In this document: piece by piece, positions 12,694-49,673 of the stretch
How positions within the stretch are numbered: the first letter of the stretch is position 1
Layout of the letters: each line of letters begins with the position of its first letter
From: Spartobacteria bacterium LR76
Lineage (GTDB): Bacteria > Verrucomicrobiota > Verrucomicrobiia > Chthoniobacterales > Terrimicrobiaceae
Direction of reading: 5' to 3'
NCBI GenBank assembly: GCA_003054655.1
Contig: QAYZ01000013.1
Coordinates: 372,001-436,000 of the forward strand
Length of the DNA stretch: 64,000 nucleotides
Notes under the pieces: model-generated
What the model saw: only the letters and a program-made list of their open reading frames with translations
Told to the model about the DNA's origin: nothing
The model's database searches: none
Position numbers and translations under genes: made by a program

Positions 12694-14133
12694 CTATATA
12701 TTGACTAGCACCCCGGCGGCTGCCTCCGGGAGGTACGCTCCCATCTCCCGGAGACGCGAACGCAGCCGCTCCGTATCGACGGCATGCACATCCACCTGCG
12801 GCAGGCGGCTGGCATGCACGGCGGCCATGCCCGCAGCTTCGCCGGTGGCCAGGCAGACGGGCATGATGCGCACGCTGCCCTGCACGGCGCGGTCACAGGA
12901 GATCGAGCGCCCGGCTACCAGGACATTTTTGAGTCCGAGCGGAGTGAGACACCGATAGGGTATGCCGTGGGACTCGCCCTTCATGTACCGATCAAAGCGC
13001 AGGGCGGCCTCCAGCTCTCCTTTGCTCCTGGCCTCCTCCTTGGTGAGATGCATGTCGATGAAGTAGCAGTTGCGGCAGATTTCATCCTCAAAGCCGCGGC
13101 GCTCCAGATAGTCCTCCGCCCGCAAAACGTAGTCTCCGACGATGCGGCGCGTCTCGCGAATGCCCAGCACGGAGCCGGTGGCCACGAGGAAGGCATTGCC
13201 GAAGGCGGAGGCATGGAACTCGGCCAGGGCGTTGCGATAGGCGAGCGCGAGTCTGCGCCCCTTGATAATACCGCGGGAAATGGTCCAGGGATCGGTATTG
13301 TCGACATCCCACACGTGACCGGCATTGAACCCAACGGTGCCGGGTCCGACAAGATTGTGGCACATATGCTTGTCGGGGATCTCCGGGTAGCGGCCTGAGG
13401 CGATGATGGCGTGGATGGGGCTTTCGGGATTCCACCATCCCAGATCGGGTCCGCTCAAGTAGGCGTTTTCGTCGACGTTCGAAAGAGTGAAGCAAAGCGT
13501 GCCGGGCTGCATCTGGCCAAGGCTGTCGCCCTTTTGGAAGTCCGCACCCGCCCACGCGCAAAGATCCGCGTCGCCGCTGCAGTCCACATAGACAGCCGCC
13601 TGGAAAGCGGTCAGCCCCTTCTTGTTTGCCGCCAGGATGGAGGTGACGCGGCCATCGTCATCTGTCTCCACTCCGGCCAGGACAGTCTGGAAGAGAATCT
13701 GCGCACCGGACTCCGTCACGATCTGATCGTACACGCGCTTCAGCCGCTCGGCGTCGATCGGGACCCAATCGAGATCCTCATCTTTCACATGCGCCATGCC
13801 TTCCTTGGCCGTGGCAAAGACTTTCTCCGCGATGCCGCAGTAGATGATCCGTTCCTGGTCCGAGAACGGCGTCCACGCAGGCACCAGCGCACTCGTGCCC
13901 GACCCTCCGAGGCAGGCGGTGGATTCTATCAGGAGCGTCCGCGCGCCCTCGCGGGCGGCTGCGGTTGCAGCAGCCGAGCCCGAGGGTCCGCCGCCGACGA
14001 CGATGACATCCCAGGAATCATCGAGCGGCACGTCGCGGTCCGCCAATCGCCGGACCGGCGATGCTCCCTGAGATGAAGTAATGGAGGGCAGATCATCTGC
14101 CAGATGAGAGAAAGTCTCGGAATAGTTAGGCAT
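12694..14133 (-). CDS. FAD-dependent oxidoreductase (FAD_oxidored type)
   Basis: 479 aa from the ATG at 14133; the frame is open further upstream but would cross the divergent regulator gene. The dinucleotide-binding motif is DVIVVGGGPSGSAAATAAAREG (GxGxxG near residue 50), followed by ACLGGSGTSALVPAW and, in mid-protein, VYVDCSGDADLCAWAGAD, all features of the FAD_oxidored family found beside verrucomicrobial and planctomycete glycoside hydrolases. NVLVAGRSISCDRAVQGSVR near the C-terminus is also typical. The substrate is unknown; sugar or sugar-acid oxidation is often suggested. No signal peptide. Divergent from a PocR-AraC regulator that probably controls it. A double-module relative is encoded at 30148. 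Confidence 0.8.
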   Translation of the reverse strand: MPNYSETFSHLADDLPSITSSQGASPVRRLADRDVPLDDSWDVIVVGGGPSGSAAATAAAREGARTLLIESTACLGGSGTSALVPAWTPFSDQERIIYCGIAEKVFATAKEGMAHVKDEDLDWVPIDAERLKRVYDQIVTESGAQILFQTVLAGVETDDDGRVTSILAANKKGLTAFQAAVYVDCSGDADLCAWAGADFQKGDSLGQMQPGTLCFTLSNVDENAYLSGPDLGWWNPESPIHAIIASGRYPEIPDKHMCHNLVGPGTVGFNAGHVWDVDNTDPWTISRGIIKGRRLALAYRNALAEFHASAFGNAFLVATGSVLGIRETRRIVGDYVLRAEDYLERRGFEDEICRNCYFIDMHLTKEEARSKGELEAALRFDRYMKGESHGIPYRCLTPLGLKNVLVAGRSISCDRAVQGSVRIMPVCLATGEAAGMAAVHASRLPQVDVHAVDTERLRSRLREMGAYLPEAAAGVLVNI

Positions 14134-14236
14134 GGCTCTGAGCAAAGATCCGGCTTTGCCGGTTGATAAAAGGGATATTGTATGCTTTGATCTTAAGTCG
14201 TTAGTCTCATGCCGATTCGTCTTGTGTCGTCTTCCG

Positions 14237-15235
14237 ATGACTGCCTCCACCTCCCTCCCTCCAGCATCGCCAGAGCCGCTTCTTGAGAAGGTTCCGTTGA
14301 TCCAGGCCGTCATGGCCGCCTTCGAGCAGGAGACCGGACTGCATATGAGTTTCGATGACTTCACCGGCTGGAGTACGGGCTGGCACGAGGACGTCCCGCA
14401 GATGAAGCTCGACTGGCTGCATCTCACGCACTCATGCGATTTTTGTGAGTTTATCAAATCCGAAGCCCATGGCCGAAAGCACTGCATCCGCAACAAGGCC
14501 GCAGTAAACCGTCTCGTGCATCAGCGACGCGAAGGCATCTCCGGATACTGTCATCTCGGTCTGTTTGACATGGCCGAACCGCTGATCTTCCGGGGCTGGA
14601 TGCTTGGCGTTTTCTACTACGGCTCCGTGCTGGTGAAGGGCAAGGAAGGCGCATCCCGCCGCCGCATTCGCCGTCATTGCACACGCTTTGGCATCGACCC
14701 CGACACCTACCTGAAGGAACTGGGCGGGATCGCGGTGATCGAGCCATCTTCCATCCCCCGGCACCGGGAAACCCTGAAGACGGTGGTCCGTCTTGCCGAG
14801 TATTTTTGCGAGGCTGCGGGTGTGCGCCCTGATCTTTATCGCCGCCGATCTCAGAGATTCCCCTATGACGATCCGGAGTCCTCTCCCTACGTGGTGAAGG
14901 AAGCGATGCATTTCATCACCTCGCACATCGACGAGCCGCTGATCGTGAAAGACCTGGCCGCTCACCTGCGCTGCCATCCGGATTTTCTCAGCCGGAAATT
15001 CAAACAGCATACCGGCACTGATCTCAGCGTCTACATCCAGCACACCCGCATCGAGCGCGCCAAGCTGCTGCTGGAGAACCCCAAGATCGACATCGGCATG
15101 GCCGCAGACCAGGCAGGGTTCTCCGATCGCGTTCATTTCAGCAAGGTTTTCCGGCGCGTCACGGGAAAGACACCCGGGCAGTATCAAAAGGAAGCCCTGG
15201 GCAAAGTCCCGACGCGACAAACGCAAGAACCCTGA
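14237..15235 (+). CDS. AraC regulator with an N-terminal PocR sensor domain
   Basis: 332 aa from the ATG at 14237. Residues about 20-180 form a PocR-type ligand-binding domain, shown by LTHSCDFCEFIKSEAHGRKH and then CIRNKAAV, in which several cysteines sit together as in PocR of propanediol use. Residues about 230-325 form the AraC DNA-binding domain: LAAHLRCHPDFLSRKFKQHT and AADQAGFSDRVHFSKVFRR. Divergent from the FAD oxidoreductase at 14133 across 103 bp. The sensed molecule is unknown; PocR domains are thought to bind small hydrocarbon derivatives. Its stop codon lies inside a hairpin that probably ends transcription. Confidence 0.85.
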   Translation: MTASTSLPPASPEPLLEKVPLIQAVMAAFEQETGLHMSFDDFTGWSTGWHEDVPQMKLDWLHLTHSCDFCEFIKSEAHGRKHCIRNKAAVNRLVHQRREGISGYCHLGLFDMAEPLIFRGWMLGVFYYGSVLVKGKEGASRRRIRRHCTRFGIDPDTYLKELGGIAVIEPSSIPRHRETLKTVVRLAEYFCEAAGVRPDLYRRRSQRFPYDDPESSPYVVKEAMHFITSHIDEPLIVKDLAAHLRCHPDFLSRKFKQHTGTDLSVYIQHTRIERAKLLLENPKIDIGMAADQAGFSDRVHFSKVFRRVTGKTPGQYQKEALGKVPTRQTQEP

Positions 15236-16618: not shown

Positions 16619-17305
16619 ATGAAAACCACCGCTCGCAAACAAGGCCGCGGCTTCACCCTGGTGGAGCTCCTGACGGTGATCGCCGTGATGAGCGTCCTCG
16701 TCTCCCTCGCCGCACCCGCCCTGAGCTCCATGGCCAAAGGCAGCCAGATGACTCAATCGCTCATCGAACTCTCCGGCACCCTGGACCAGGCGCGCCAGCA
16801 TGCCATTTCCCGCAACACCTACGTCTGGGTGGCCCTGCGCCCCAATCCCGACGGCCCCAACGGAGACGAACTCAGCATGGTGGTTCTCGCCTCAAAGTCC
16901 GGCACCGATCCCCTGCCGTGGTCAAACTACGGCACCGTGCCCAACGACGAGATCGACCTGATCACGCGCCCCCGCACCTTTGACCAAATGCGCTTTGAGG
17001 AGGCCGGAAAATACACCAAGAGCGATATCCCGAGACTGGACGGCAAGAGCACGACCTCGATCGCCAATACGCCATCGGATAATACAGCCGTCTTCCGGAT
17101 CAAGCTCCCCGGCGCCGCCTCCCTGGTCGATTTCGACCGCGTCATCCAATTCACCCCCACCGGCGAGGCCCGAGTCTCCTCGAGCGTCATCGACGTCATC
17201 GAGTTTGGCCTGCATCCGACCCGGGGCAAGACCGGGGATGCCAGCAATGTCGCCGTGCTGCGCGTCAACGGACTCACGGGCCAGACTGCGGTATACCGCC
17301 CCTGA
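16619..17305 (+). CDS. Verru_Chthon cassette 1 protein D (GspH-like pseudopilin)
   Basis: 228 aa from the ATG at 16619. A type III signal sequence is clear: a basic leader ending in Gly, then FTLVELLTVIAVMSVLVSLA with Glu at +5, as required for prepilin peptidase cleavage. The soluble domain (about residues 50-228) resembles GspH/FimT minor pseudopilins in layout: a helix with QSLIELSGTLDQARQHAISR, then beta-strands. First gene of a tight D-B-C-A-E operon; the next start is 2 nt away. Probable inner-membrane anchored member of a pseudopilus tip. The Verru_Chthon cassette is a known verrucomicrobial gene set of unknown function. Confidence 0.8.
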   Translation: MKTTARKQGRGFTLVELLTVIAVMSVLVSLAAPALSSMAKGSQMTQSLIELSGTLDQARQHAISRNTYVWVALRPNPDGPNGDELSMVVLASKSGTDPLPWSNYGTVPNDEIDLITRPRTFDQMRFEEAGKYTKSDIPRLDGKSTTSIANTPSDNTAVFRIKLPGAASLVDFDRVIQFTPTGEARVSSSVIDVIEFGLHPTRGKTGDASNVAVLRVNGLTGQTAVYRP

Positions 17306-17307
17306 AA

Positions 17308-17766
17308 ATGAAAAAGCACCTGATGCGGGGTTTTTCATTGGTCGAGGTGGTGTTGGCTCTCGGCATCTGCGCCTTTGTCCTGGTCGCCCTGCTCGGTTTG
17401 TTCAGCACCGGGCTGCGGGCCGGGAGGGAGTCTGAGGAACAGGTGCAGGCCGCCAATCTCGCATCGCAGATCCTCGCCACCCGCATCGCCGCGCCCAGCG
17501 ACACCAACCTCACCAGCTTTGCCATCCCGGCCGCAGCCCTGACCAATGCCTTTGCCGACATCTCTCCCTCCGGCGGCGGGTTGGTCGGGTTGGACGGGCG
17601 AACCAACAGCACCCCTGCGTATCGCATCGTCTGCCGGGCGGGAACCGACTCTGAGACGGGACCCCGGCTCGCCCGGGTGTATCTCATGCTAAGCTGGCCA
17701 TACCAGGCCGCTCTGTCCAATGCCGCCGGACGATACGAGATCTCCTCCTATGTCACATTGTATTGA
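17308..17766 (+). CDS. Verru_Chthon cassette 1 protein B (GspI-like pseudopilin)
   Basis: 152 aa. MKKHLMRG is the leader and cleavage before FSLVEVVLALGICAFVLVAL leaves Glu at +5. After the transmembrane helix comes VQAANLASQILATRI, the AxxLAxxxL pattern of GspI (minor pseudopilin I) proteins. The C-terminal half is a small beta domain. It starts 2 nt after the D gene and overlaps the C gene by 17 bp, so the products are likely made in fixed proportion. Expected to pair with the J- and K-like partners at a pseudopilus tip; this is by analogy with the type II secretion system. Confidence 0.8.
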   Translation: MKKHLMRGFSLVEVVLALGICAFVLVALLGLFSTGLRAGRESEEQVQAANLASQILATRIAAPSDTNLTSFAIPAAALTNAFADISPSGGGLVGLDGRTNSTPAYRIVCRAGTDSETGPRLARVYLMLSWPYQAALSNAAGRYEISSYVTLY

Positions 17767-18529
17767 CACACCCCTCCATCGCAAGCCGGACCGCGGAGGC
17801 TTCACGCTCATCGAGCTCCTGGTGGCCACCGCGGTGCTGGCGCTGATCTCCGTGGTCCTCGCGCAGATGCTCTCGGCGACCAGCCAGACCTGGATCACCG
17901 GGCAGGCCAAGGTGAACAATTTCACGAAAGGCCGTGCAATGATGGATCTGCTGACCCGCGACCTGCAGGGCGGCGTATACCGCAGGGATCTGCCGGCCTT
18001 TCCCAACCAAACGGTCGCATTCTTCACCGAGCGGCCGGGATTCGGGGGCAATGCCTCGCTCACGCGCAACCTGTCCTGGGTGCAGTATGATCTCGGCCCC
18101 TCGACCAACACAGTCCTCCAGCGTGCGGACCTGGCACAGGCATGGAACGCGACTGGGACACCCGCCTTCGGCGAGAGCAATGCCCCGACGGGCGCGGTAG
18201 CCCGCGATACCGCACCGGGGATCGTCGGATTCCAGATCCAGTTCGTCTACGCAGACGGTTCGATGTCGACAACCTACGTCGCGACCAACCGGCCCAAGGC
18301 TGTCTCCGTGGGGATCGCCGTGGTTGACGACAAGACGCTGGAACTCCTCGCTCTCAACTCCGAGGATATCGCTGCGCTGCGCAAAGGCTTCTCCTCCCAT
18401 GCCTCCGGCACCAACAGCGTGAAATCCGACTGGGAGAAGTACCTGCGAAGCGATCTCGACTGGAGCGCATACCCAAAGAGCCTGGCGAGCGGACTCAAGA
18501 TTTTTGAACGTTATGTCTCGCTCCCCTGA
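17750..18529 (+). CDS. Verru_Chthon cassette 1 protein C (GspJ-like pseudopilin)
   Basis: 259 aa from the ATG at 17750. The leader runs to PDRGG, then FTLIELLVATAVLALISVVL with Glu at +5. The region after the helix (NNFTKGRAMMDLLTRDLQGG) follows the GspJ pattern, in which a helix with an Arg-Asp pair precedes a beta domain. Overlaps B upstream by 17 bp and A downstream by 17 bp. Within the operon it holds the third place, as gspJ does in H-I-J-K clusters. Role inferred as a minor pseudopilin. Confidence 0.8.
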   Translation: MSHCIDTPLHRKPDRGGFTLIELLVATAVLALISVVLAQMLSATSQTWITGQAKVNNFTKGRAMMDLLTRDLQGGVYRRDLPAFPNQTVAFFTERPGFGGNASLTRNLSWVQYDLGPSTNTVLQRADLAQAWNATGTPAFGESNAPTGAVARDTAPGIVGFQIQFVYADGSMSTTYVATNRPKAVSVGIAVVDDKTLELLALNSEDIAALRKGFSSHASGTNSVKSDWEKYLRSDLDWSAYPKSLASGLKIFERYVSLP

Positions 18530-21500
18530 CCGGTTCCCGCGCAGCACTCCGGACCTCCGCACCCGGGGCGTAGCGCTCATCACCGTGCTGTCCCTGGTGG
18601 TGATCGTGTGTCTCATCCTGGTCGCCTTTGTGGCGGCGATGCGCATCGAGCGCACGGCATCGTACAGCTACGGCCAGTCCATCTCGGCCGAGCAGATCGG
18701 CCAGGGCGGCCTGCGCCGGATCATAGCAGAGCTCCAGTACGAAATGGGCAAGGACGCCGCACCGCTCCTCGACTATCCACGGAAGCCGGTCTACACGAAC
18801 GTCACCGCCACCAACATCATGCCTCAGTACGTGGGGACGAATGCGGACATGCCCAATCTGATCAAGATCAGCACCACGACTCCTCCCTACACCGGCGCGC
18901 TATCCTCCGGCCAGCTCATCGCTACTAAAGTCAATACATCCATCACCGCACAGAACGGGCGGTTCGTCGGCACCAACCGCTGGAACCTGCCTGAGCTGGG
19001 CAGATTTCCCGGTACCAACAGCACGCCAAACTGGATCCTTATGACCCGCTCGGGCGTCACGGATGGCAGCAGCGGCGGCTTCGGAACGACCGGCAACACC
19101 CTGAACAACGCATCTCCGGGCAACACGAATTTCGTCATCGGACGCTTTGCCTATGCCATCTATGACACCGGGGGCCTGCTCGATATCACCCAGGCCGGAT
19201 ATCCCTCCTCCCTGCCCCCCTCAGATATCCAGCAGATCAAGGGCTTACTCCCCGGCACATCGCTGAGCGACACCAACCTCGCCATCGACGTGCAAAAGCT
19301 GACTGCCTGGCGCAACGCCGCGAGCCGGTCGGGCTATGTCCAGTATGTCACAAACTTCCTTGCCACCAACTCGGGACAGACGGTCTATCCGGGGGACAAT
19401 ACCTTTCTCAGCCGCCAGGACCTGATCAAGGCGGCAAAGGACGCGGTCGCCGGACTGACGACCAACGCCCTGCCCAACCTCACCACCTTTTCGCGCGACC
19501 GCAACGCGCCCAGTTGGGGTCCGATGTTCAATGCCACTGATCTCGGCGGCACCAACTCAGCGTCATACGCCTATCGAAACAATGCCGGTATTTCCACCTC
19601 CTCGCCTTTCACCGCTGTGAATCGCAATCCGAACCGCCTCCTGCCGGGAGTGCGCTATGGATCTGCCTATACCATTACCGACTACAATAGCACAGGAGCA
19701 GCTTATACATACCAGGTGCAACCTGGAGACGCCGTCGTGCAGCGCCGTTTTCCGCTGGCCCGCCTCGCCTGGGTGGGGCCCAATGGTCCCACCGGGGCGT
19801 CTGTGACCGCCATCCGGGCCTGCTTCGGCCTCTCCTGGGGACCGTCGGCAGACCCGAACCTTCCCGGGGTCAACGTCTGGAAATACGAGGAGCTGACGGC
19901 CAAATCGACGATCAAGACTCTCGACCAGGTGGCGAGCGAGGGGCGCGCACCCAATTTCTTCGAGCTGCTCCAGGCCGCCATCCTCCGCGGATCGCTCGGG
20001 GTGAATGGCAACGCCGGCGTCACGAGCGGCACTACCTACAACATGAGCATTCATCAGAGCTTCCCGGCCTTTCAGATCCTGCGGATGGGAGCTGCCGCCA
20101 TCGACCAGGCGGATGCGGATTCCTTTCCCACTGTGATCGAGTACCAGCAAAGCGGCAGCCCATGGCAGGCCTGCGGCGTGGAGAGCCTCCCCGGGATCAT
20201 CTCCGTCACCCCGGTCCTCGGCGTACCCAACTCGTCGCCGCAAACCGAGGGGGAAACCAGCGCCACAGCCGCAGTCTATCTTTCCTTCAACCTCTGGAAC
20301 CCGCACCGCACGACGCCAGCCAGCATACCCGAACTCCGCATCCGCGTGCGGGGCTCGGTGGGGGTCTATAACATGCACGGCGATCCTGCCATCCTAACCT
20401 CCACGCTCGGCTCCAAGTCAGAACCTGGATTCTCTGCCGACCTCGATGAAGCCATCGAACTCAGCGTGGCGGCACGGACCGGATTCACCACGCCATCCAC
20501 CCTCATGGTTTCGGATCTCCAGGGAACCAAGCCGATCTCTACCACACCTTCGGATTTTGACAAGGGCGAGTGGGTGGAGGCTCTGCCCCTCGGGGCCAGC
20601 CTGACGACAAATATCGCCACTCTCCGACTGCATGATTTTCCGTACAAACTTGGCCTCAACAGCGCCATCACCACCGACCGCTATCAAAGTACAAAGGTGG
20701 CGCTGGGATACGATAGCGTTAGCCCGTTCAACGCCGTCATGGAGTTCAGGGCACCCTCCGGATCATGGATTCCCTATCAATTTGCCACCGGTATGAACAA
20801 CAACCTCACGTGGTTCAACTCTCTCGGCGGCAACTTCTACATCGTCTCAGCAAACGCCCGCACCGATGGAAAATATTACGCAAACTTTATTGCCTATCTG
20901 GGCGGTGCATATCCGGCTGGATGGACGACAAATGCATCCTCCGGCGCCGTGTATCATTCGGTCGCCAATGACCCTTGGGGCACCCCCGCTGGGACGGGAA
21001 TCGTCTATTTGACTTATAACAACACATGGGACCGGTCGTTGATGTATGCCTCCAATGATCCCCGCTCTACGCGACTTAACACCTGGATGTTTACGCGCTC
21101 GGGACCGCTCTCGATCTCCGCGACGCAAAAAATGATCCTGTGGTCTTCAACCAACATTGCAACGCTGTTTGAGAAAGGCTTCGGCGGCGACAGTAACTAC
21201 GTCCAACTGAAACCGACTGTCTTTGGAACCTCGTATTTCCCCGCCCAGCTCGCCCGGAACAACTACGGCAGCGACACAGCGATCTCCTCCACCAGCAACA
21301 CCGTCACGCGCACGGGCAGCGGGTCGGACACCAGCTACACCGACAACGATGGTCTGCGGCGGACTGCGGACTCAGGACTCTTCGGCGATGCCAACGCTAC
21401 GACCGGAAATCCCTTCGAGCGAACCCTCGACAAACCCGTCATCCTGAACCGCCCCTTCCGCTCGGTCGGTGAAATAGGCTATGTCTTCCGGGACAATCCC

Positions 21501-22073
21501 TGGCGCACCGCAGACTTTTTCTCCTCGAAGAGCGCCGACTCCGCCCTCCTCGATATATTTACCGTGCAGGACTCCACCGAGCGTGTCGTCTCCGGTCGCG
21601 TCAACCTGAACACCCGCAATGCCAATGTCCTGAAGGCGCTGTTCACGGAAACCATGATCGATCCTGTGACCAATACCACGCTCTCCGCGACGGAGGCCGC
21701 CACGCTGGCCGCAACTATCACGCAATTCACCTCGACAAACAGGATCGTCAACAAGAGCGACCTCGCCAACGTGGTCAGCCCGTTCCTGAGCCCCACAACA
21801 GGCTCCACGCTGAGTACAAACTTCACATCACTCGATAATCAGAACCTCAAGCTGAGACGCGAGGCCTTTGTGCGCGCATTGACTGATACGACGCAGACAC
21901 GCACCTGGAACCTCATGATCGATATCATCGCCCAAGCCGGACGCTATGGCCCCGCCGCGAATACGCTCGATAAATTCATCGTCGAAAGCGAGCGACGGTA
22001 CTGGCTCCATGTCGCCATCGACCGCTTCACCGGCGAGGTGCTGGATCAAAAACTGGAGGCAGTGACAGAATGA
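18513..22073 (+). CDS. Verru_Chthon cassette 1 protein A (giant GspK-like protein)
   Basis: 1186 aa from the ATG at 18513 (a TTG nine bases earlier is also possible). After TRG comes VALITVLSLVVIVCLILVAF, a prepilin-like segment whose +5 residue is Thr instead of Glu. GspK of type II secretion is the one pseudopilin known to lack Glu+5 and to be much larger than the rest, so this is the K-like member, though about four times longer than GspK. The remaining 1100 residues are rich in Asn, Ser, Thr and Gly and end with a segment (SGRVNLNTRNANVLKALF) like the GspK repeat that precedes its helical domain. Likely caps a pseudopilus or presents a large surface domain. Confidence 0.8.
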   Translation: MSRSPDRFPRSTPDLRTRGVALITVLSLVVIVCLILVAFVAAMRIERTASYSYGQSISAEQIGQGGLRRIIAELQYEMGKDAAPLLDYPRKPVYTNVTATNIMPQYVGTNADMPNLIKISTTTPPYTGALSSGQLIATKVNTSITAQNGRFVGTNRWNLPELGRFPGTNSTPNWILMTRSGVTDGSSGGFGTTGNTLNNASPGNTNFVIGRFAYAIYDTGGLLDITQAGYPSSLPPSDIQQIKGLLPGTSLSDTNLAIDVQKLTAWRNAASRSGYVQYVTNFLATNSGQTVYPGDNTFLSRQDLIKAAKDAVAGLTTNALPNLTTFSRDRNAPSWGPMFNATDLGGTNSASYAYRNNAGISTSSPFTAVNRNPNRLLPGVRYGSAYTITDYNSTGAAYTYQVQPGDAVVQRRFPLARLAWVGPNGPTGASVTAIRACFGLSWGPSADPNLPGVNVWKYEELTAKSTIKTLDQVASEGRAPNFFELLQAAILRGSLGVNGNAGVTSGTTYNMSIHQSFPAFQILRMGAAAIDQADADSFPTVIEYQQSGSPWQACGVESLPGIISVTPVLGVPNSSPQTEGETSATAAVYLSFNLWNPHRTTPASIPELRIRVRGSVGVYNMHGDPAILTSTLGSKSEPGFSADLDEAIELSVAARTGFTTPSTLMVSDLQGTKPISTTPSDFDKGEWVEALPLGASLTTNIATLRLHDFPYKLGLNSAITTDRYQSTKVALGYDSVSPFNAVMEFRAPSGSWIPYQFATGMNNNLTWFNSLGGNFYIVSANARTDGKYYANFIAYLGGAYPAGWTTNASSGAVYHSVANDPWGTPAGTGIVYLTYNNTWDRSLMYASNDPRSTRLNTWMFTRSGPLSISATQKMILWSSTNIATLFEKGFGGDSNYVQLKPTVFGTSYFPAQLARNNYGSDTAISSTSNTVTRTGSGSDTSYTDNDGLRRTADSGLFGDANATTGNPFERTLDKPVILNRPFRSVGEIGYVFRDNPWRTADFFSSKSADSALLDIFTVQDSTERVVSGRVNLNTRNANVLKALFTETMIDPVTNTTLSATEAATLAATITQFTSTNRIVNKSDLANVVSPFLSPTTGSTLSTNFTSLDNQNLKLRREAFVRALTDTTQTRTWNLMIDIIAQAGRYGPAANTLDKFIVESERRYWLHVAIDRFTGEVLDQKLEAVTE

Positions 22074-22816
22074 AAATCTTGATTGGTCTTGTCGGCATGT
22101 TCCTGGGTGCGACGATCGCGGGTGCCGCCCCTCCCGGCCCGAATCTGGCGAGTTTCCCGCCGCCGCATGCGCCATTCGTCAAGCCGGTGGCCGAAAAGGC
22201 GAGCTGGACGATCACGACGCAGGAGATCCCTTCGACCGAGAAAAAGGAATCCGCGCCGCCTCAGCCAAAATCCCTCGTGACCAGCATCGATTCGTTTCGC
22301 AATGGAGAGTTCAAGCGCGACCTCATCACCTATGCCAGCGGGCAGAGGGAGGAGGTGTGGTATTTCCAGGGGCAGGTGCTGTCCGCCGCCTCATCGCGCC
22401 CGGAAAAGGTCGTCATCCAATCCTTCGCCGCTCTCGAGGAAGGGTATGACCAGACGGAGATCTTTCGCCTCGTGGGAAATCCCGTGAAATCTCCCGGCTA
22501 CCCCGGTCTCAACTGGGTGGATAAAAAGTACTATGACGCCGTGACCCTCTTCAACAAGACCGTACCGGCCTATCACTACGTCCTCCGAGGCAAGGTGGAC
22601 GGTCAGGACCTCGTCGCGGCCGAGGCCTGGGTCGACGCCCAGACCGGGCTGCCCCTGGGTTATACGTCGGATGGGGCTCTCTACGTTTATCGCTTCGGGG
22701 AGGCTCCGACCGGCAGCGCAACCCTCCCGCCCGCTTTTGCCGCCGCCCTCCAGAAGGTGAAGCAACGGCAGGACCTCCTGCGCCGGCTCCAGGCGGACGC
22801 CGCCGCCCTCCGCTAG
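22070..22816 (+). CDS. Exported protein linked to cassette 1, function unknown
   Basis: 248 aa, starting with an ATGA overlap with protein A, so translation is probably coupled. A signal peptide is evident (MKILIGLVGMFLGATIAGAA). The next 45 residues are Pro-rich and probably flexible. The folded part (about residues 70-225) has alternating strands (DLITYASGQREEVWYFQGQV, YHYVLRGKVDGQDLVAAEAW) and resembles no family I can name. The C-terminus is a charged helix (LQKVKQRQDLLRRLQADAA). Cassette 2 has no counterpart. It may be a periplasmic partner of the large A protein. Confidence 0.65.
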   Translation: MKILIGLVGMFLGATIAGAAPPGPNLASFPPPHAPFVKPVAEKASWTITTQEIPSTEKKESAPPQPKSLVTSIDSFRNGEFKRDLITYASGQREEVWYFQGQVLSAASSRPEKVVIQSFAALEEGYDQTEIFRLVGNPVKSPGYPGLNWVDKKYYDAVTLFNKTVPAYHYVLRGKVDGQDLVAAEAWVDAQTGLPLGYTSDGALYVYRFGEAPTGSATLPPAFAAALQKVKQRQDLLRRLQADAAALR

Positions 22817-30063: not shown

Positions 30064-30091
30064 CACATGCGAGGTCGGCTTCCGGTTAACG
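30064..30091 (+). promoter_or_regulatory. Motif B copy 2, before the FAD oxidoreductase-GH3 operon
   Basis: CACATG (30064), TCGGC (30075), CGG (30083) and TAAC (30087), with the same internal spacing as the copy before GH50. It ends 57 nt before the start codon of the FAD oxidoreductase gene. Confidence 0.55.
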
Positions 30092-40403: not shown

Positions 40404-41771
40404 ATGATTGTTCACTCCTCCCTAAGATTCCTCCTGGCCGCATCAGTGGCAGCCAGCATCGCAATGACCCCCGGCTCCGCCCGTGCGCAGGCGGTGGACG
40501 TTCCGCTCACCAACCCTGATTTCAAGGACGGTGATGGCGACGGACTGCCCGACGGATGGAAGCCCGCGCCCGGCGGCGACGGCACGACGACCATCATCAA
40601 GGTCGACGGCGGTGCGCTGAAATTCACCGACAACAGCGAGGGCGTCGGCCTCGGTCTCGCGCAGTGGGTCGATGTGAATCCCGGAGACGAATACACCGCC
40701 AAGGCCGACCTGGAAGGTACGGGCAGTGTGATGTTCCTGATGGTCTTCGTCCCGAAGATCCCCGCCCGCGAGGGAGACATGAACAAGGTGAAGATCGGGG
40801 AAGCCAAGATTTCGCTGCCAGCCAAGGATGGCGTGACGGAGCTCAAGGCCGTCGCGCCAGCCGGAGCCACCAAGGCCCGGCTCATGCTGTATTGCCCGAA
40901 GATCGGGAAGTGCGATGTCACCGTAAAATCCGTTTCGCTGAAGAAAACCGGCTCCGGCCCCGCACCAACGCCCATTCCGTCCGCCGCAGCCGCCGGTCCC
41001 ACGCCCAAGCCGCGCAACGATCATGGCCGGGACCATCCTGACAGCATGATCCAGCCGGGGACGGTGGCGAAGATCGACTTCGAGACCGGCGACTTCTCGC
41101 AGGTGCGTCTCCAGGAGGGCGGCAAGAAGGAGGTCGTCAGCGCGCCCGACCCGGTGCGCTCCGGCCAGCATGCGATGAAGGTGATGCTCACGCACGACCA
41201 GCACCGCACGGAGGTGACCGGGCCGCGCAGCCAGCCCTACGGGGAGTTCAAGTACGGCTGGAGCATTTACCTGCCGAAGGAATTCGACGGCAACTCGTGG
41301 TTCAGCATCATCACGCAGTGGCATACCTGGGGCAGCGGCAAGGAGTATGTCATCAACCCTCCCGGCCCGCCGACCTGCCTCACCGTTTCCAAGGGCAACT
41401 GGGATCTCCTCCTGCGTTACCAGGACGGCGACACGGACAACGCCGCCGTGAAACATTTCGACTTCGGCCCGATCGAGCCCGACCTCGGCCGTTGGGTGGA
41501 TTTTGTGATGGAGGTCAACTGGCAGTCGCCCAAGAGCGGCGGCGGATACCTGAAGCTGTGGAAGGACGGCAAGCTGGTCGTCGACTACACAGGGCCGACG
41601 TGGTTTGAAGACAAGACGAGCGGGCCGTTCTTCAAGATGGGCATCTATAAAGGCGCCGGATCATGGAAAGGCGAGGAGAGCGGCGCGATCGTGTACTTCG
41701 ACGAGTTCCGCATGGGTGACAAGTCCATCCCGCACGATGCTGTCGACCCGGCCAAGCAGGCTGGCAAGTAA
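40404..41771 (+). CDS. Exported polysaccharide lyase (Polysacc_lyase family) with N-terminal module
   Basis: 455 aa with a signal peptide (LRFLLAASVAASIAMTPGSA). Residues about 30-190 form an all-beta module (NSEGVGLGLAQWVDVNPGDE) also present in the lyase at 52233 and alone at 42859. A Pro/Ala linker follows. Residues about 215-440 resemble the Polysacc_lyase (PF14099-type, heparin-lyase-I-like jelly roll) family: HDQHRTEVTGPRSQPYG, FSIITQWHTWGSG, MEVNWQSPKSGGGYLKLW and FFKMGIYKG. Such enzymes cut uronate-containing glycans by beta-elimination; members include glucuronan lyases. The substrate is not fixed by sequence. Followed at once by a LacI regulator gene. Confidence 0.75.
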   Translation: MIVHSSLRFLLAASVAASIAMTPGSARAQAVDVPLTNPDFKDGDGDGLPDGWKPAPGGDGTTTIIKVDGGALKFTDNSEGVGLGLAQWVDVNPGDEYTAKADLEGTGSVMFLMVFVPKIPAREGDMNKVKIGEAKISLPAKDGVTELKAVAPAGATKARLMLYCPKIGKCDVTVKSVSLKKTGSGPAPTPIPSAAAAGPTPKPRNDHGRDHPDSMIQPGTVAKIDFETGDFSQVRLQEGGKKEVVSAPDPVRSGQHAMKVMLTHDQHRTEVTGPRSQPYGEFKYGWSIYLPKEFDGNSWFSIITQWHTWGSGKEYVINPPGPPTCLTVSKGNWDLLLRYQDGDTDNAAVKHFDFGPIEPDLGRWVDFVMEVNWQSPKSGGGYLKLWKDGKLVVDYTGPTWFEDKTSGPFFKMGIYKGAGSWKGEESGAIVYFDEFRMGDKSIPHDAVDPAKQAGK

Positions 41772-43511: not shown

Positions 43512-44147
43512 TCAGCGGCTATTGGGTTGAAACGTCCGCGTTCGGCCCGTCTCGGGGATCAACTGCACGGCGACGAAATTATCCGGCGGCGTCTGCCCGG
43601 CAGGCGGGCGGCGCGAGTCGTAAAGCATGACGTGCCACGTGTCGCCCTGCTTCGTGAGGCTCGGCAGGCTGGCGCTGCCATCGGGGCGGAAGACAAAGTA
43701 GCGGTAGTGGAATTGCTTGCTGCGGTCGATGGCGGGGAGATTGGTTTGTCCCGCGGACAGCTCGCTCAACAAAGTGCCAAATGCATCCGTCTCGGACATG
43801 ACGATGCTGTTCTGAAGATAAGCCAGCCGCCCAAGCGGGGACGGACCGTCGTCTCCCAGGAGGTAAATGCCGATGGCACGATAAGCGAGCGTCGCGTCGG
43901 TCGAGCGCGGCACTTCGTAAAACCGCACCTCGACCGGGCGGTTCGCGCTCACGGCAGACTGCCGGGCGAGGTTCAGCGTATCGACCATCTGGTCGCCCGA
44001 GATGTTCAGCTCGGTGGAGGACGAGAGGCCGCTTAGCGAGGGAATGGTGACCGCAACGAGGATGCCGATGATCGCGATCACGGTCAGCAGCTCGACCAGA
44101 GAGAAGGCCGCGTCGCGAACTTTCCTAATGGAGCCTGGCCGGTTCAT
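43512..44147 (-). CDS. Verru_Chthon cassette 2 protein D (GspH-like pseudopilin)
   Basis: 211 aa; its ATG overlaps the stop of protein A (ATGA). Leader MNRPGSIRKVRDAA, then FSLVELLTVIAIIGILVAVT with Glu at +5 (cleavage after Ala). The soluble part (SGDQMVDTLNLARQSAVSAN) follows GspH/FimT. It is the last gene of this B-C-A-D operon, whereas D is first in cassette 1, so the gene order has changed while the set is kept. Confidence 0.8.
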   Translation of the reverse strand: MNRPGSIRKVRDAAFSLVELLTVIAIIGILVAVTIPSLSGLSSSTELNISGDQMVDTLNLARQSAVSANRPVEVRFYEVPRSTDATLAYRAIGIYLLGDDGPSPLGRLAYLQNSIVMSETDAFGTLLSELSAGQTNLPAIDRSKQFHYRYFVFRPDGSASLPSLTKQGDTWHVMLYDSRRPPAGQTPPDNFVAVQLIPETGRTRTFQPNSR

Positions 44148-47100
44148 TGGGGGAGAAACTGACGGGATGATCTGATCCGGAATTTATAGTAAGGATAGAT
44201 CGTTTTCGAGAAATTCGCGGCCTGCGCAAAATCAGGGATCGAGGTGTCAGCCGAGTCAAGATAGCGCTCGACGTCGAAAGAGCCGCGGTACTCTCCGGTC
44301 ACCCGCAGGCGGCTCTCGGGTATGCTGCCAAGCGAGATATCCGGCGCAACCTGGATCGTCTGGGCTTTCACGTAAACGGTGTAGGTATTCGACTGGGTGG
44401 TCAGGCGCGGGTAGAGGTTGTTGTAGGGTGCCTCCCATGCATTGTCACCGGTGAGCGTGTTCCTGGCCCAGAAACTCTTGATAGCCGTGCGCAGCGCCCC
44501 GGCGTCGGAGGCCCCGGCGATGTTGACGGAGCTGATGGGATGCTCCGGCGCGTCCTCGGAATGCCCCGTGCCGATCACGCTGTTGACATTATGTTTCGGC
44601 GCGAGCGGGATCGAGCAGATCTCCGAGGCCGACTGAAAGACATCCCGGCTCGGGTCGCTGTCGGCGAAGCGCTCCTTGAAAAACAGCAGCGTCTGGCTCG
44701 CGTCGACATCATAGAGGTACGAGATGGCCCAGCGGCTCTTCGACGCGTCCACCGTGTAGCCGGACCACTTGTAGTACCCGGCGTGTTCCTTGGGGAAAGC
44801 CAATACGCGCACCGATTTGAGGGCGCCCATGAGGGCGGTGGTCCGCTCAACGTAGGTGAAGGGAGCGATCTGGCAGTTCATGTTGACCTTTCCGGCGGTG
44901 GAGAAGGTCCGGCTGATCGGGTAGGGATCGACCACAGGCATCCAGAAGAGATCGAGCAGCGCGCTATCGGCCGGGGAGGCAGCGCCAGGGTGCGCCATCG
45001 GCGCGATGTCGGGACGGAAAAGCAGCGTCTCCCACGGGATGCCGGAGCCCGCACGGGAGGGCAGCGTGCCGAGCTGCACCGCCGAGGCGACCTGCCGGTT
45101 CGGGGAAAACGCCGTGGTGAGATTGTCGTCCCAGGGAAAGAGCTGGTTCTGGTAGGGTATGCGGGCGCTCTGACCCCAGTTGAACCCTTCGAGGCTGGAG
45201 TTCCCCTCGTCCGCCTTCAGGATGGCCGGCCCGTCGCCCTCCGAGGCAAGGCTGGTGGTGAAGTCTCCGGGCGCGGGCACGTTTGTCATCTGGCTCGGAG
45301 CCTGCGGGAGATAGTTCAGCGGCGTGCCGCTGGAAAAGGCGGTCGCCGTGCCATTGACCAGCGTGCCGCGGCGGACGGCTACCGTAGTGGCCGGTGTCGC
45401 GTTGGCCGGTGTCTTCAAGGCGAGATTCGATGTGGACCAGAATTGCCCGCACGCGCCGAGGAGCGAGTGCGCCTGGGGGAAGCCGGTGTTGGTGTAGTCC
45501 TTGTGGGGGATGAATTTGCTGGTGGTGTCGGTGCCGGTAAGGGCCAGCAGGCGCAGGTCTCCATGCTCCAGCTCAAGACCGCGGATGACGTCGTTGGCGC
45601 CGATGACGATTTTTTTCATCGCCCAGCTTTCGCCTGAGTCTTTCTCGATGAGCTTGCAGGCGTCGGCGAGCTGGTTGACGCGGATCTGGAGCGAGGAAGC
45701 CAGCTTTGCATTGCCAGCCGCTGCATCACCGTCGCCCGGAAAGGCTCCCACGAGCGGGCCAAAGCCTGGAAACGACAGATCGTAGGAGGAGATCGTGTCG
45801 CCGCCCATGTCCTGAAGCTTTACCGTGACCATGTGCGAGCTGCCTCCGCCGGAAGGCCGCAGCCCGACGCGGATCGTGTCCTTGATGTCGGCACCGGACG
45901 AGTTCGTCTTCGGATAGATCACCTGAAACTGCGCCGAGACGAAGGGATAGCCCTTCAGGCTGTCACCCGAGCCGATGGTGCGGGGCGAAAGCTGGTAGTT
46001 GGCTGCCGGATCGCTGTAGAGGAAGAGATTATTGTACCCCTGCGTGCCTCCCCAGGCTCGGCCAGTGAAGGGCTCGACATTGGCGGGCACGTTGACCTCG
46101 ATGGTCCCGTCGCCGAAGGACAGCGGCGAGACGATGGTCGACCCGGTGATGGTCGGCACATCCGTCACGGCCTCGAATCCCCCCGCCAGTCCATTCACCG
46201 CGATCTGGTAATCCGGGACATACCCGGCAAACCCCATCATCGGCACAAAGGTCTCCATGAGAAAGACGGCGCGGTATTTCACCGTCACCTGGCCGGGGAT
46301 GGGCTTGTCGACCAGCTCCTCCTCACGAATGACGGCCAGCGCGCCCTTGGACAGCGTAGGGAAGCGCCCGTAGCCGCTCGTCGCCTTGATCTTGATGGGC
46401 AGCACCTGGCCGCTGCCCGGCAGCCCGGGCGGATTCGTCGTGCCGTTGGCTGCGGGATTGTTCTGCCAGGCGTAGGGCTTCACTGCGCCCTGCTTGTCGC
46501 GATAGGCGAGATTGACGGTGCGCACCCAGTCAAAGATCGAGGTGAGAAGCTGCTCGCGGTCGGCGACAGGGTACTTCGACGAAAAGCTGCCGCCGATGCC
46601 GGGGATCGGCGTCGCCGTGAGGCTGTCGAGATAGCTGAGGAGCGTCTGGTTGCGGGTGATCTTGTCGTAGTCATCGGTGCGGCTCGCCGGGTTCTGCCGC
46701 TGGAAATAGTATTCGCTGCCATCGAGCGTCGCGCACATGGCCAGCAGGCGATCGGAGGCGCTCTGGTAGTCCGGGCGCGTGTCGACGGGCCAGAGGCTCA
46801 CGCGGGGTTTGCCGAAGAGGTTGATCTCCGGGGCATTGCTATCCACGGTGAGAAAGAACCGGACCAGCTCAAGGCGCTCGGGATCGAGGAGGAAGTCATC
46901 GGTGAAGGAGTACGTCGTCCCGGACATCTGTCTGCTGCTGCCGGTGAACTTGAAATCCAGCTCGCCCTCCTTGAGGGCCTTCATGTTCTGCGTCGTCATC
47001 CGGTAGCGCTGGCCGGTCCCGCCGTCGTACTTGGGCAGGAAGAGCAGTTCATCGACGCTGGCGTACAGCCGGTCCTGGTCGTTCTGGACGGGAAAGCTGT

Positions 47101-48130
47101 ACCCGATCATGCGGGTGCCGACCTGTGAACCCCGGCCGGCGACGCGCGGCGTGAGCGAGTAGATGAAATTGCTCAGGTCGGATTTGTTTGTGGTGAGGAA
47201 ATCCAGCACGGGGCTGAGCGAGGTCGTCGCCGGGTGGCCGGGATAACGCTGGTATTCACGAGCATTGACTTGTCCGGAACTGAGCGAGTCATCCGCGCCC
47301 GCGATGACGGGGAGCGTCCAGAAGGATCCCTCCGAGGCCGTGTTGACATTCAGCCGGCAGGTGTCGTCATCGGTCCAGAAGGCGATGCGCGCCACGGGCG
47401 GGTTGCCATCCGGCACGGTGTTCCCATTGGGCAGGACGAGCCGCACCGTCTTGCCTCCGGAGGCCGTAGCCAGGCTGCCATCCTTGAGCACGTAGATCCA
47501 CCGCACCGGCATCGGGATCTGGCCGATCTCGGTTGTATCGCCGTCTCCATCGAGATCGTCCTTGTCAGGCAGCGCGTAGTTTGGGGAGACATCAAAACCC
47601 TGGATGCGCGTGTCGGCATCCAGCCCGCCGGGGTTCAGGATGGGATAGCTGGGCCTTTTGTCGATGGTGACGGGAGAGTTCAGGTCGGTGTAGACGCCGG
47701 GGGCGGCGTTCCAGGGGAGCTGATCCTTGCTCGACGACGAGGACCAGGCAGGCACGTCGGAGGGCTGGCTGCCGGAGATCAGGGAAAAACCCGCACCATC
47801 GACCATCTTGTCCGAGCTGTAGAGCTTGAAAACCTGCGTCTGCTTTCCCTGGTTGTTAAAGGTGCGCAGCAGCCCGGGCTGGCTGGTCCACGTCTGCGAA
47901 GCATCGTCCACCGTGGTGGCGGCACGGAGCTGGCCGAGCACGACATTGACGGCGGCGTCGGCATAGATCCGCGCCGAAACGCCGGAGGCGTAGCTCTTGG
48001 ATGCGCTCAGCTCCTTGTTCGTACTGGCAAGGAAGGCCACGCACAGCAGCGTGATGAGCACCAGCGCGCCAAGCACGATGACCAGGGCCATGCCCCGCCG
48101 CGAGAATGATGGAAGCGGTCGCATCATCAT
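44144..48130 (-). CDS. Verru_Chthon cassette 2 protein A (giant GspK-like protein)
   Basis: 1328 aa, starting at one of three consecutive ATG codons (48130, 48127, 48124). After RRG comes MALVIVLGALVLITLLCVAF; the +5 position is Ile rather than Glu, as expected for the K-like member. The extracellular part is rich in Asp, Ser, Thr and Pro and contains NVNTASEGSF and KVNMNCQIAP stretches similar to protein A of cassette 1, but overall identity is low. Start overlaps the C stop (ATGA). Probably exposed on the outer face of the envelope. Confidence 0.8.
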   Translation of the reverse strand: MMMRPLPSFSRRGMALVIVLGALVLITLLCVAFLASTNKELSASKSYASGVSARIYADAAVNVVLGQLRAATTVDDASQTWTSQPGLLRTFNNQGKQTQVFKLYSSDKMVDGAGFSLISGSQPSDVPAWSSSSSKDQLPWNAAPGVYTDLNSPVTIDKRPSYPILNPGGLDADTRIQGFDVSPNYALPDKDDLDGDGDTTEIGQIPMPVRWIYVLKDGSLATASGGKTVRLVLPNGNTVPDGNPPVARIAFWTDDDTCRLNVNTASEGSFWTLPVIAGADDSLSSGQVNAREYQRYPGHPATTSLSPVLDFLTTNKSDLSNFIYSLTPRVAGRGSQVGTRMIGYSFPVQNDQDRLYASVDELLFLPKYDGGTGQRYRMTTQNMKALKEGELDFKFTGSSRQMSGTTYSFTDDFLLDPERLELVRFFLTVDSNAPEINLFGKPRVSLWPVDTRPDYQSASDRLLAMCATLDGSEYYFQRQNPASRTDDYDKITRNQTLLSYLDSLTATPIPGIGGSFSSKYPVADREQLLTSIFDWVRTVNLAYRDKQGAVKPYAWQNNPAANGTTNPPGLPGSGQVLPIKIKATSGYGRFPTLSKGALAVIREEELVDKPIPGQVTVKYRAVFLMETFVPMMGFAGYVPDYQIAVNGLAGGFEAVTDVPTITGSTIVSPLSFGDGTIEVNVPANVEPFTGRAWGGTQGYNNLFLYSDPAANYQLSPRTIGSGDSLKGYPFVSAQFQVIYPKTNSSGADIKDTIRVGLRPSGGGSSHMVTVKLQDMGGDTISSYDLSFPGFGPLVGAFPGDGDAAAGNAKLASSLQIRVNQLADACKLIEKDSGESWAMKKIVIGANDVIRGLELEHGDLRLLALTGTDTTSKFIPHKDYTNTGFPQAHSLLGACGQFWSTSNLALKTPANATPATTVAVRRGTLVNGTATAFSSGTPLNYLPQAPSQMTNVPAPGDFTTSLASEGDGPAILKADEGNSSLEGFNWGQSARIPYQNQLFPWDDNLTTAFSPNRQVASAVQLGTLPSRAGSGIPWETLLFRPDIAPMAHPGAASPADSALLDLFWMPVVDPYPISRTFSTAGKVNMNCQIAPFTYVERTTALMGALKSVRVLAFPKEHAGYYKWSGYTVDASKSRWAISYLYDVDASQTLLFFKERFADSDPSRDVFQSASEICSIPLAPKHNVNSVIGTGHSEDAPEHPISSVNIAGASDAGALRTAIKSFWARNTLTGDNAWEAPYNNLYPRLTTQSNTYTVYVKAQTIQVAPDISLGSIPESRLRVTGEYRGSFDVERYLDSADTSIPDFAQAANFSKTIYPYYKFRIRSSRQFLPQ

Positions 48131-49167
48131 CCACCCTCCTTCGTGCTGATCGTGGTGGAAAAGACGCGGTAGTTCAGGCGCGGGCCGCCGCGGTTGCCCG
48201 CCAGCACGGACTCGAGCTCCGCGAGGTCGTGGTCATAGCTCGCGATGGTCTGGAACGCTCCGGCGGGAACGAGCGGCGGCTGGCTCGTGCCGTAGACATC
48301 ACGCAGGCGCTGCGCGGAGTCCTCGTCGATGGCTACCATCGTCACCTGGAGCAGCGGCGGCAGCAGGTAGCTGCGATCCTCCACATAAGTCGCCGTCGTG
48401 GAGTCGTAGGAATACTTTATCCCCAACGCGGCATTGTCCGCACCCCTTGGCAAGATGACGAGGGCGATGATGTTCTCCGCCATCACCCGGCAATACTGAT
48501 GGCTCGCGAGCGCCTGCTGAAACCACGCCCACTGCTGGCCTGCGTTGTACGAGGAATCATACAGCGTCAGCTTTTCGGAAGGCTGCACCCACTCAATGAG
48601 CCGAAACCCCGGGTGATCCGAGGCCGTCCGGCCCTGGAGAAATCTCGGGATCTGGCTATACGTCGACGCCGGCCCAAACTCGACGAAGTACCCGGCGGCA
48701 TTCAGCATCCCGGGGGACTCGATGCGGAGATCTTCATCATCCGTGCGCCCGAGCGGAGCCTGAAAAAACACGGCATGCGTCACCTTGCCGGAAGCCGACG
48801 GGAGCAGCTCAGCCGCCGGGCCGCTGACAAACTCCAGCTCGGAAAACCGCCCGTAGTTCGCGGCCTGCCCGCCGGCCGCCGTGGTGTGCCTCCAGTTGGC
48901 ATCATAATAGTCGATATAATGGTTCAAGGTCGCCTGGCTCAGGTTGCGCGTCACCGCTTCGAAAGCCGCCCGCGCGCTCTGGAAGGCCGTGATCTTCGAG
49001 CTGGTGCTCCGCCAGAGATTGCTCGTCTGGCTGACGATATTGAAGATCACCACCAGGATCGTCATCAGTACCGCGCACGCGACCAGCAGCTCCACCAGGG
49101 TGAATCCGTCGGCTTTGCTGGTCTGTGGGAAACGATGGTAATGGCTCACGTTTTCGCCCGGCTGCAT
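48127..49167 (-). CDS. Verru_Chthon cassette 2 protein C (GspJ-like pseudopilin)
   Basis: 346 aa from the ATG at 49167; a GTG at 49149 would also fit. Leader to KADG, then FTLVELLVACAVLMTILVVI with Glu at +5. After the helix, SARAAFEAVTRNLSQATLNH follows the GspJ pattern. It is 87 residues longer than protein C of cassette 1, with the extra length in the beta domain. Starts 35 nt after the B gene and overlaps the A gene by 4 bp. Confidence 0.8.
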   Translation of the reverse strand: MQPGENVSHYHRFPQTSKADGFTLVELLVACAVLMTILVVIFNIVSQTSNLWRSTSSKITAFQSARAAFEAVTRNLSQATLNHYIDYYDANWRHTTAAGGQAANYGRFSELEFVSGPAAELLPSASGKVTHAVFFQAPLGRTDDEDLRIESPGMLNAAGYFVEFGPASTYSQIPRFLQGRTASDHPGFRLIEWVQPSEKLTLYDSSYNAGQQWAWFQQALASHQYCRVMAENIIALVILPRGADNAALGIKYSYDSTTATYVEDRSYLLPPLLQVTMVAIDEDSAQRLRDVYGTSQPPLVPAGAFQTIASYDHDLAELESVLAGNRGGPRLNYRVFSTTISTKEGG

Positions 49168-49202: not shown

Positions 49203-49673
49203 TTAGTTGGCCACCACGCGGGACTTCGCCGCGATGTAGGTCACAAACGTCTTCGAGGCTCCCGTGGCGGCCTCGCCCATGCGACGAAAGGTGATCGTCA
49301 CACCAGTCAGCCCTCCATCCGCCCTTCCCCCAGAGCCCGGCAGGACTGGCTGCGGCGTAATCGCGATGCTGGCGGAGTAGATGCATCCGGGACTCCGTTC
49401 CGAAACAAAGTTTCCCGCATCGTCAAACCAGAAACTGTTGCCCTCGTATTGCGAGATCTCCGCGTACGGCGTCTGGCTGATGCGACCCACGATATGCTGC
49501 ACCATCTGCCCCTCCATCGAGGTATCCATCGCCTTGCGAAAGACCTGCAAACCGCAGGGCAGCATCCCCAGGATGGCGACGAAGGCAAAGCTCACGATGC
49601 CGATCGCAAGGACTGTTTCGACCAGCGTGAAGGCGCGTATCTCGCGAATGCTGTCTTTGAACCGGATGTTCAT
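49203..49673 (-). CDS. Verru_Chthon cassette 2 protein B (GspI-like pseudopilin)
   Basis: 156 aa from the ATG at 49673. Leader MNIRFKDSIREIRA, then FTLVETVLAIGIVSFAFVAI with Glu at +5 and Ala at -1. The following helix contains GQMVQHIVGRI. First gene of the operon, 69 bp downstream of the palindrome at 49742. The gene set B-C-A-D matches cassette 1 in content, and each member is about the same length as its counterpart or longer. Confidence 0.8.
   Translation of the reverse strand: MNIRFKDSIREIRAFTLVETVLAIGIVSFAFVAILGMLPCGLQVFRKAMDTSMEGQMVQHIVGRISQTPYAEISQYEGNSFWFDDAGNFVSERSPGCIYSASIAITPQPVLPGSGGRADGGLTGVTITFRRMGEAATGASKTFVTYIAAKSRVVAN

Follow-up and report, generated by a model that had tools for sequence, protein, structure and literature searches.

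The stretch analysed here, termed the window, comprises 64,000 nucleotides of contig QAYZ01000013.1 (positions 372,001 to 436,000) from the verrucomicrobial Spartobacteria bacterium LR76. Window positions 16619-22073 hold four consecutive prepilin genes in the order D-B-C-A, all on the + strand, which are referred to below as cassette 1. It is fairly probable that this cassette encodes an alternative minor-pseudopilin tip, in which D-B-C-A would be of the H-I-J-K type known from type II secretion systems (T2SS), together with a periplasmic partner, protein E. The gene of the latter was overlooked in the preliminary description of this DNA; the operon extends past 22073, the start of gene E overlapping the stop codon of gene A (ATGA). 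The genes are the following, positions being those of the window:

16619-17305, + strand: gene D, GspH/GspG-like prepilin of 228 amino acids (aa); leader TARKQGRG/FTLVE, Glu at position +5 (Glu+5)
17308-17766, + strand: gene B, GspI-like prepilin of 152 aa; leader KKHLMRG/FSLVE, Glu+5
17750-18529, + strand: gene C, GspJ-like prepilin of 259 aa; leader HRKPDRGG/FTLIE, Glu+5 (the longest reading frame starts at 17720)
18513-22073, + strand: gene A, giant GspK-like prepilin of 1,186 aa; leader PDLRTRG/VALITV, Thr at +5
22070-22816, + strand: gene E, 248 aa, signal-peptide-like start, predicted LolA/RseB-type half-barrel

The four prepilin leaders, with Glu+5 in D, B and C and Thr in A, had been reported in the preliminary description and were all recovered by a leader scan, and the equation of the gene order D-B-C-A with gspH-I-J-K agrees with Escherichia coli K-12. 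The scan found four leaders in the 5.5 kb of the cassette and one in five 19.9-kb cassette-free stretches of the same genome (L053, L054, L056, L059 and L060, which are not a random draw), so the leaders in cassette 1 exceed the number expected by chance. Among 59 A proteins, including that of cassette 1, residue +5 relative to a cleavage site picked by script is I, L, V, T, A or M, and Glu in none (0/59). Since the assigned homologues of D, B and C had to carry Glu+5 in order to be selected, its universality there is not independent evidence. Nineteen frames without an assignable start and two overlong A frames were left out of the assignment. After removal of near-identical, truncated or odd-length rows, the alignments comprised 45 D (of 47 assigned), 48 B (of 52), 48 C (of 51), 53 A (of 59) and 41 E (of 44).

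Protein A may be regarded with good confidence as a GspK homologue, judging by its predicted fold and by a sequence profile compared without the leader. Its AlphaFold2 (AF2) model, built from 53 sequences with a predicted local distance difference test score (pLDDT) of 78.6 and a predicted template modelling score of 0.82, aligned best with XcpX (PDB 5vtm_X, Z 12.0, 230 of 259 residues at a root-mean-square deviation (rmsd) of 4.2), followed by other GspK/XcpX chains (6utu_C, Z 12.0; 9a1f_T, 11.3; GspK 3ci0_K, 10.7). The best chain outside GspK was a Streptococcus minor pilin (Z 5.1), and unrelated chains reached at most 4.5; this Z ranking is a re-alignment of the top Foldseek chains, of which 994 were aligned. 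The model contains the pseudopilin core with an inserted alpha-domain that is characteristic of GspK, and the leader lacks Glu+5, as in GspK. In profile comparisons by hhalign, the last 260 aa of A, free of the leader, matched the GspK mature domain with a probability (P) of 95.7 (E-value 9e-9), and profiles of G, H, I and J with only 0.0-0.4; with the leader included, A was closest to GspK (95.2), followed by GspI (48.6). The claim that the 1,186-residue protein is K-like is thereby borne out by model and profile alike. Among A-type homologues, 32 of 40 matched the NCBIfam GspK model at an E-value of at most 0.1 (best 6.9e-10) and 21 of 40 the Verru_Chthon A model at the same threshold, the sole other pilin-type model found being ComGG (2 of 40).

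The four GspK/XcpX matches run from residues 16-56 to residues 1185-1186 of A, that is nearly from end to end, and cover 230-268 residues (the longest, of 268 residues, has an rmsd of 13.5); in the model, therefore, most of A is insertion, several hundred residues being added relative to GspK. Two parts of the protein may be delimited:

20133-21422, + strand: predicted insertion within A relative to GspK, about residues 541-970, placed by DSSP, pLDDT and the GspK match behind it; boundaries approximate
21444-21881, + strand: GspK-type segment 'NRPFRSV.EL ... VNLNT' with helices, about residues 978-1123, from hhalign and AF2

In the AF2 model the strands at about 541-776 form a beta-rich part of the insertion, followed by mostly low-confidence structure, parts of 776-938 having pLDDT below 50. 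The segment at about 978-1123 aligns by hhalign to GspK mature positions 143-244, where 'LNRPFRSVGEIGYVFRD...VNLNT' of A pairs with the GspK block 'N.PL.t..EL..V...vNiNtA'. A stretch near the motif 'YAIYDEGG' (64 of 68 proteins) is collinear with the part of GspK before the insertion, the match being not significant (E-value 0.11). Sequence searches of the PDB with profiles of A, B, C, D and E gave chance matches, pilin leader matches or nothing.

Similarity confined to the leader was not accepted as proof of an H, I, J or K type, and the hhalign comparisons were repeated with the leaders removed. Protein C, for which a GspJ-type partner is a fair to good assignment from its sequence profile, was closest to GspJ with the leader (P 98.6 over 160 columns) and kept a match to it without (P 34.1, E-value 4e-4, 152 columns); 25 of its 48 homologues matched the GspJ model. 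For B the best match with the leader was GspI (P 97.0), and 32 of 48 homologues matched the PilV model and 14 of 48 the gspI model. Protein D scored 36.6 bits with the GspH model (cut-off 80), and its homologues matched gspH in 41 of 45 cases and gspG in 37 of 45 (best E-values 7.6e-11 and 7.6e-8), as well as Pfam GspH in 16 of 45 at an E-value of at most 0.1. The proposed identification of the four proteins largely holds, the putative types of B (GspI) and D (GspG/H) resting on leader-proximal sequence and gene order. Of the H-I-J-K identity first proposed, the K and J parts stand on A and C, while B and D match GspI and GspH only with their leaders on.

Besides gene order, leader pattern, a K without Glu+5, the alpha-domain fold of K and a J-like C, all shared with the GspH-I-J-K proteins of the E. 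coli gsp and Pseudomonas Xcp systems, there are clear differences from these: A is 3.5-4 times as large as GspK, cassette 1 comes without a major pseudopilin or machine genes, and such cassettes occur in many copies per genome and have a partner, E, of predicted LolA fold.

Cassette 1 is a divergent sister of the Verru_Chthon cassettes, uncharacterised in NCBIfam (TIGR02600, TIGR02598, TIGR02599 and TIGR02596 for A, B, C and D), in which prepilin-type B, C and D genes likewise cluster with a giant A gene. Its proteins stay below the curated cut-offs of these models (D 45.4 of 70, B 36.1 of 51.4, C 45.9 of 256.5 and A 21.6 of 332.3 bits), and all D (45/45), B (48/48) and C (48/48) homologues match the respective models at an E-value of at most 0.01. 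A search of the genome with TIGR02600 gave 23 matches, corresponding to 22 A genes. Eleven of these, one of them split into two pieces, score over the cut-off; the other 11 stay below it, and 10 of them match the model only from its position 1, over 56-170 positions. Cassettes with a below-cut-off A are called type 1 here, and those above it type proper; their makeup was read from a gene scan and from hidden Markov models (HMMs) built on type-1 proteins of this genome.

The order D-B-C-A is found in nine of the 11 type-1 loci, the others being B-C-D-A (L051) and A-E (L039, with no B, C or D in the stretch up to the next cassette); D of L049 was identified by HMM alone. The A protein of L052 is very divergent (unmatched by the type-1 A HMM, 15.5 bits with TIGR02600), and a 904-aa frame without a Pfam match lies between it and C (L052:5302-8016). 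In contrast, only one of the 11 type-proper loci has D-B-C-A, the others being five B-C-D-A, three B-C-A-D, one split locus (L038) and one lone A (L041). Gene E follows A in nine of the 11 type-1 loci, seven of these nine E proteins having built the E HMM, and in none of the 11 type-proper loci searched with that HMM. The leader of the type-proper A matches GspK to a similar degree (94.7 by hhalign), and its C-terminal part only at 4.9. A count of Glu at any position within an N-terminal stretch of 20 residues (11 of 68 type-1 A proteins, none of 11 of type proper, 9 of 31 GspK) covers more than position +5 and was not used. Type-1 A with E and without nearby D, B and C was seen at L039:331-4349 in this genome and at L065:7962-11911 in a relative; for such A-E heads the remaining subunits of the tip may be borrowed.

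One scan of a genome collection with a type-1 A alignment, limited to the best 80 of 148 relatives, gave 76 further loci (L061-L136), all placed in Verrucomicrobiota by their record titles. Seventy of their A genes could be judged (frame above 900 aa), 56 with room on both sides and 68 with room downstream: D-B-C-A order was found in 39 of the 56, and E directly after A in 41 of the 68. Of 145 genomes drawn evenly across the phylum, four had type-1 and three type-proper A genes (E-value at most 1e-20); up to four candidates were scored per genome, which makes the copy numbers of this survey unusable. The cassettes are thus rare across the phylum and multiplied where they occur. In four survey genomes for which neither cassette type was reported among the at most four candidates scored in each (G015, G023, G039 and G093), frames of 1,010-1,576 aa match the N-terminal part of GspK, and giant K-like pseudopilins may be wider spread.

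Pairwise distances of D, B, C and A are correlated over 45 full loci (r 0.75-0.88, reached in 0 of 2000 permutations) and among eight cassettes of the genome itself (r 0.93-0.97, reached in 0 to 2 of 5000 permutations). In contrast to this correlation, the nearest neighbour of A agrees with that of D, B or C in only 18-19 of 45 loci. The subunits change as sets, as those of a dedicated complex would, and shared inheritance of an operon gives the same pattern.

Protein E is predicted to have a LolA/RseB-type half-barrel over most of its length, which does not imply a function. Its AF2 model (41 sequences, pLDDT 89.9) was aligned by VIA-align with LolA (Z 6.3-9.8), RseB (8.2-9.6), ependymin-related proteins (9.0-9.5) and VioE (9.1-9.6), the best row being an uncharacterised Thermus protein (Z 10.3); according to the aligner's own warning, a best Z of 7-8 is usual even without a true relative. 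The predicted half-barrel is thus common to E and the LolA/RseB/ependymin-related fold, with a sequence identity of 3-16% in the listed rows. Foldseek gave only four matches at an E-value of at most 0.001, and Pfam gave no match for E. A match of one of 41 homologues to a pore-forming toxin family of Pfam (E-value 0.0065) was taken as chance. A lipobox-like motif is present in just two of 50 E proteins.

The machinery that the cassette would need is encoded elsewhere in the genome, as had been anticipated. Eight T2SSE-family hits and five secretin hits all fall outside C10, the contig of the window, on C1, C9 and C11, so that ATPase and secretin genes are remote from the cassette (GspF was not searched by model). 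One Peptidase_A24 prepilin peptidase gene was found (two hits in one frame), and thus the peptidase, GspE and secretin genes all lie outside the window. A T2SS locus (L055) has G, H, I, J and K genes of its own: it holds four Glu+5 prepilin genes, assigned as G-H-I-J from leader and position, genes for which GspK (304 aa, 68.2 bits), GspD and GspE were the best models, all under the curated cut-offs, and L-, M- and F-like genes assigned by position and by eye. A further prepilin cluster (L057/L058, C11:12000-45900), separate from this locus and from the cassettes, includes a T2SSE-type ATPase in a 767-aa frame and an 818-residue Glu+5 prepilin.

Several results weigh against an H-I-J-K-type tip serving a T2SS. 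With the A model, Foldseek alone returned nothing under an E-value of 0.001, and the GspK-type chain of the XcpGHIJK pseudopilus model came only at rank 38 (E-value 0.93). Against the GspK model NF037980, cassette 1 A scores 20.8 bits, under the cut-off of 130, which the GspK of the genome's own T2SS likewise misses. The A paralogue of L042 passes the Pfam T2SSK cut-off (26.1 against 24.2 bits), a match that was discounted because an unrelated 882-aa frame, presumably encoding a Tex-type protein, also passes (24.4 bits). Without leaders, neither B with GspI (P 3.4) nor D with GspH (P 0.2) gave a detectable match by hhalign, and with the leader D shows no preference for GspH (GspG 97.4, GspJ 96.5, GspH 95.7, the GspG and GspH profiles holding two sequences each). 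The Foldseek TM-scores of E are low, at 0.24-0.36 of the query in the LolA, RseB and ependymin rows. Finally, H, I, J and K are already present in the T2SS locus, and the genome also has two Amuc_1098-type pilus secretins above cut-off, PilB/GspE-type ATPases and two PilT-like ATPases recognised by eye only. As a T2SS locus and type IV pilus (T4P) genes are both present, either machine could serve the tips.

A distinctly less probable possibility is that the cassette encodes a T4P tip equivalent to FimU-PilV-PilW-PilX, built by the pilus machine of the genome, with the giant K-type subunit as an adhesin, so that the locus would enable binding of the cell to the glycan degraded by its hydrolases. 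The preference of the B proteins for PilV over gspI is in line with this, as are two tandem PilB/GspE-type ATPase genes about 3 kb from a type-proper cassette (L044:4772-16932) and the occurrence of Amuc_1098-type secretin matches in 134 of the 145 survey genomes, this one included (E-value at most 1e-20). A precedent is provided by Myxococcus xanthus, in which three minor-pilin clusters are reported to serve one type IVa pilus machine (PMC7541494); several tip gene sets on one machine would be the shared feature, with a separate PilY1 protein and three sets there, and a giant K and about twenty sets here. The same source gives PilX as lacking Glu+5 too, which weakens the inference of GspK from position +5. 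However, A carries a GspK-type domain, and Pseudomonas PilX is reported to lack the GspK insertion (PMC7248040); because of this domain, a T2SS-type tip is favoured over a PilX-type one. Co-occurrence does not decide between the two machines, because every cassette-bearing survey genome, four with type-1 and three with type-proper A genes, has a match to GspK as well as one of the Amuc_1098 type.

It is improbable that the cassette forms a short filament of its own, with D as the repeating subunit, B-C-A as the cap and a shared ATPase as the drive. The leaning of D to GspG in the comparison with leaders would fit such a filament, and the cassette has no further Glu+5 prepilin gene beyond D, B and C; against it, NCBIfam and Pfam place D nearer to GspH, and the hhalign profiles concerned are the small ones mentioned above. 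A membrane-anchored periplasmic receptor that never polymerises, the leaders serving complex assembly alone, would account for a window without a T2SSE-family ATPase or secretin gene, and is very improbable in view of the conserved prepilin cleavage sites and Glu+5 of D, B and C and the predicted GspK-type fold of A.

If cassette 1 indeed encodes an alternative tip of the H-I-J-K type, the shared prepilin peptidase would trim D, B, C and A, which would come together in the inner membrane to form a capped tip whose outermost protein is A, and this tip would prime a pseudopilus of a major pseudopilin encoded elsewhere, such as GspG of the T2SS. The enlarged head of A might present or select a specific client for secretion, candidates being the PEP-CTERM protein encoded alongside and the glycan hydrolases of the locus, and E might carry a lipid or lipid-like client or guard the head of A in the periplasm. 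Given the 22 A genes of this genome, the tips would be exchangeable, and each might be switched on with its own locus. A tentative suggestion is that a single machine, the T2SS or the T4P, would acquire new targets through about twenty interchangeable tips of the H-I-J-K type, whose giant GspK heads would pick locus-specific clients, with E as a dedicated partner in the periplasm handing over a lipid-bearing or lipid-like one; the tip sets of Myxococcus pili (PMC7541494) would be the published precedent by analogy.

How type II secretion chooses its substrates is a long-standing open question, and retargeting by exchangeable tips, if true, would be a new principle of this choice. With its T2SS locus and its surplus of about twenty GspK-type heads, many of them beside genes for secreted proteins or glycan use, the genome would be a natural experiment in which heads and clients can be matched, and the proposed role would give the uncharacterised Verru_Chthon proteins of NCBI a testable function. 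No literature describing these cassettes was found by title or abstract start among open-licence papers. For Verruconatronum alginivorum, 17 genes are reported as over-expressed on alginate, a pseudopilin being one of them, and one PulG-like pseudopilin is stated to have 67 homologues in the genome (PMC13274419); pilins and pseudopilins are stated to be greatly enriched in two Verrucomicrobiae populations (PMC12487129).

The genes around cassette 1 include those of glycoside hydrolases (GH42-like, GH5, GH16 and GH3, with GH1 upstream), sugar transporters and a flavin adenine dinucleotide (FAD) oxidoreductase. Other features of the window are:

14132-15235, + strand: AraC-type regulator with a PocR sensory domain, upstream of the cassette; kept at 92% identity in L061
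15288-16169, - strand: gene of a PEP-CTERM protein, running divergently from the cassette; 25.0 bits with the Pfam PEP-CTERM model (cut-off 20.7); kept at 87% identity in L061
43512-49673, - strand: second cassette, Verru_Chthon type proper, order B-C-A-D, found by its leaders; A scores 832.8 bits with TIGR02600 (cut-off 332.3; L018)
49203-49673, 48127-49149, 44144-48124 and 43512-44147, - strand: genes B, C, A and D, respectively, of the second cassette, by leader scan

In the closest relative found, L061, with an A 86% identical, the region from the GH1 gene through the FAD oxidoreductase gene at 30067 is kept, including the cassette and the PEP-CTERM gene; there was no hit for the GH42-like gene and only a short one for GH5. 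The genome has 92 PEP-CTERM frames above the Pfam cut-off (one only with its neighbours in the frame), and such a frame occurs within 8 kb of 14 of the 22 A genes, with 8.0 expected (p 0.008). This enrichment is mild (p 0.07 for the type proper by itself, p 0.029 for type 1 by itself and p 0.03-0.08 for the median distance), the PEP-CTERM protein as client of the tip being a lead. A polysaccharide lyase gene lies by the second cassette, at 40404-41771, and at 61024-61704 a prepilin gene (MHTSRRA/FTLVE) stands alone, apart from all cassettes.

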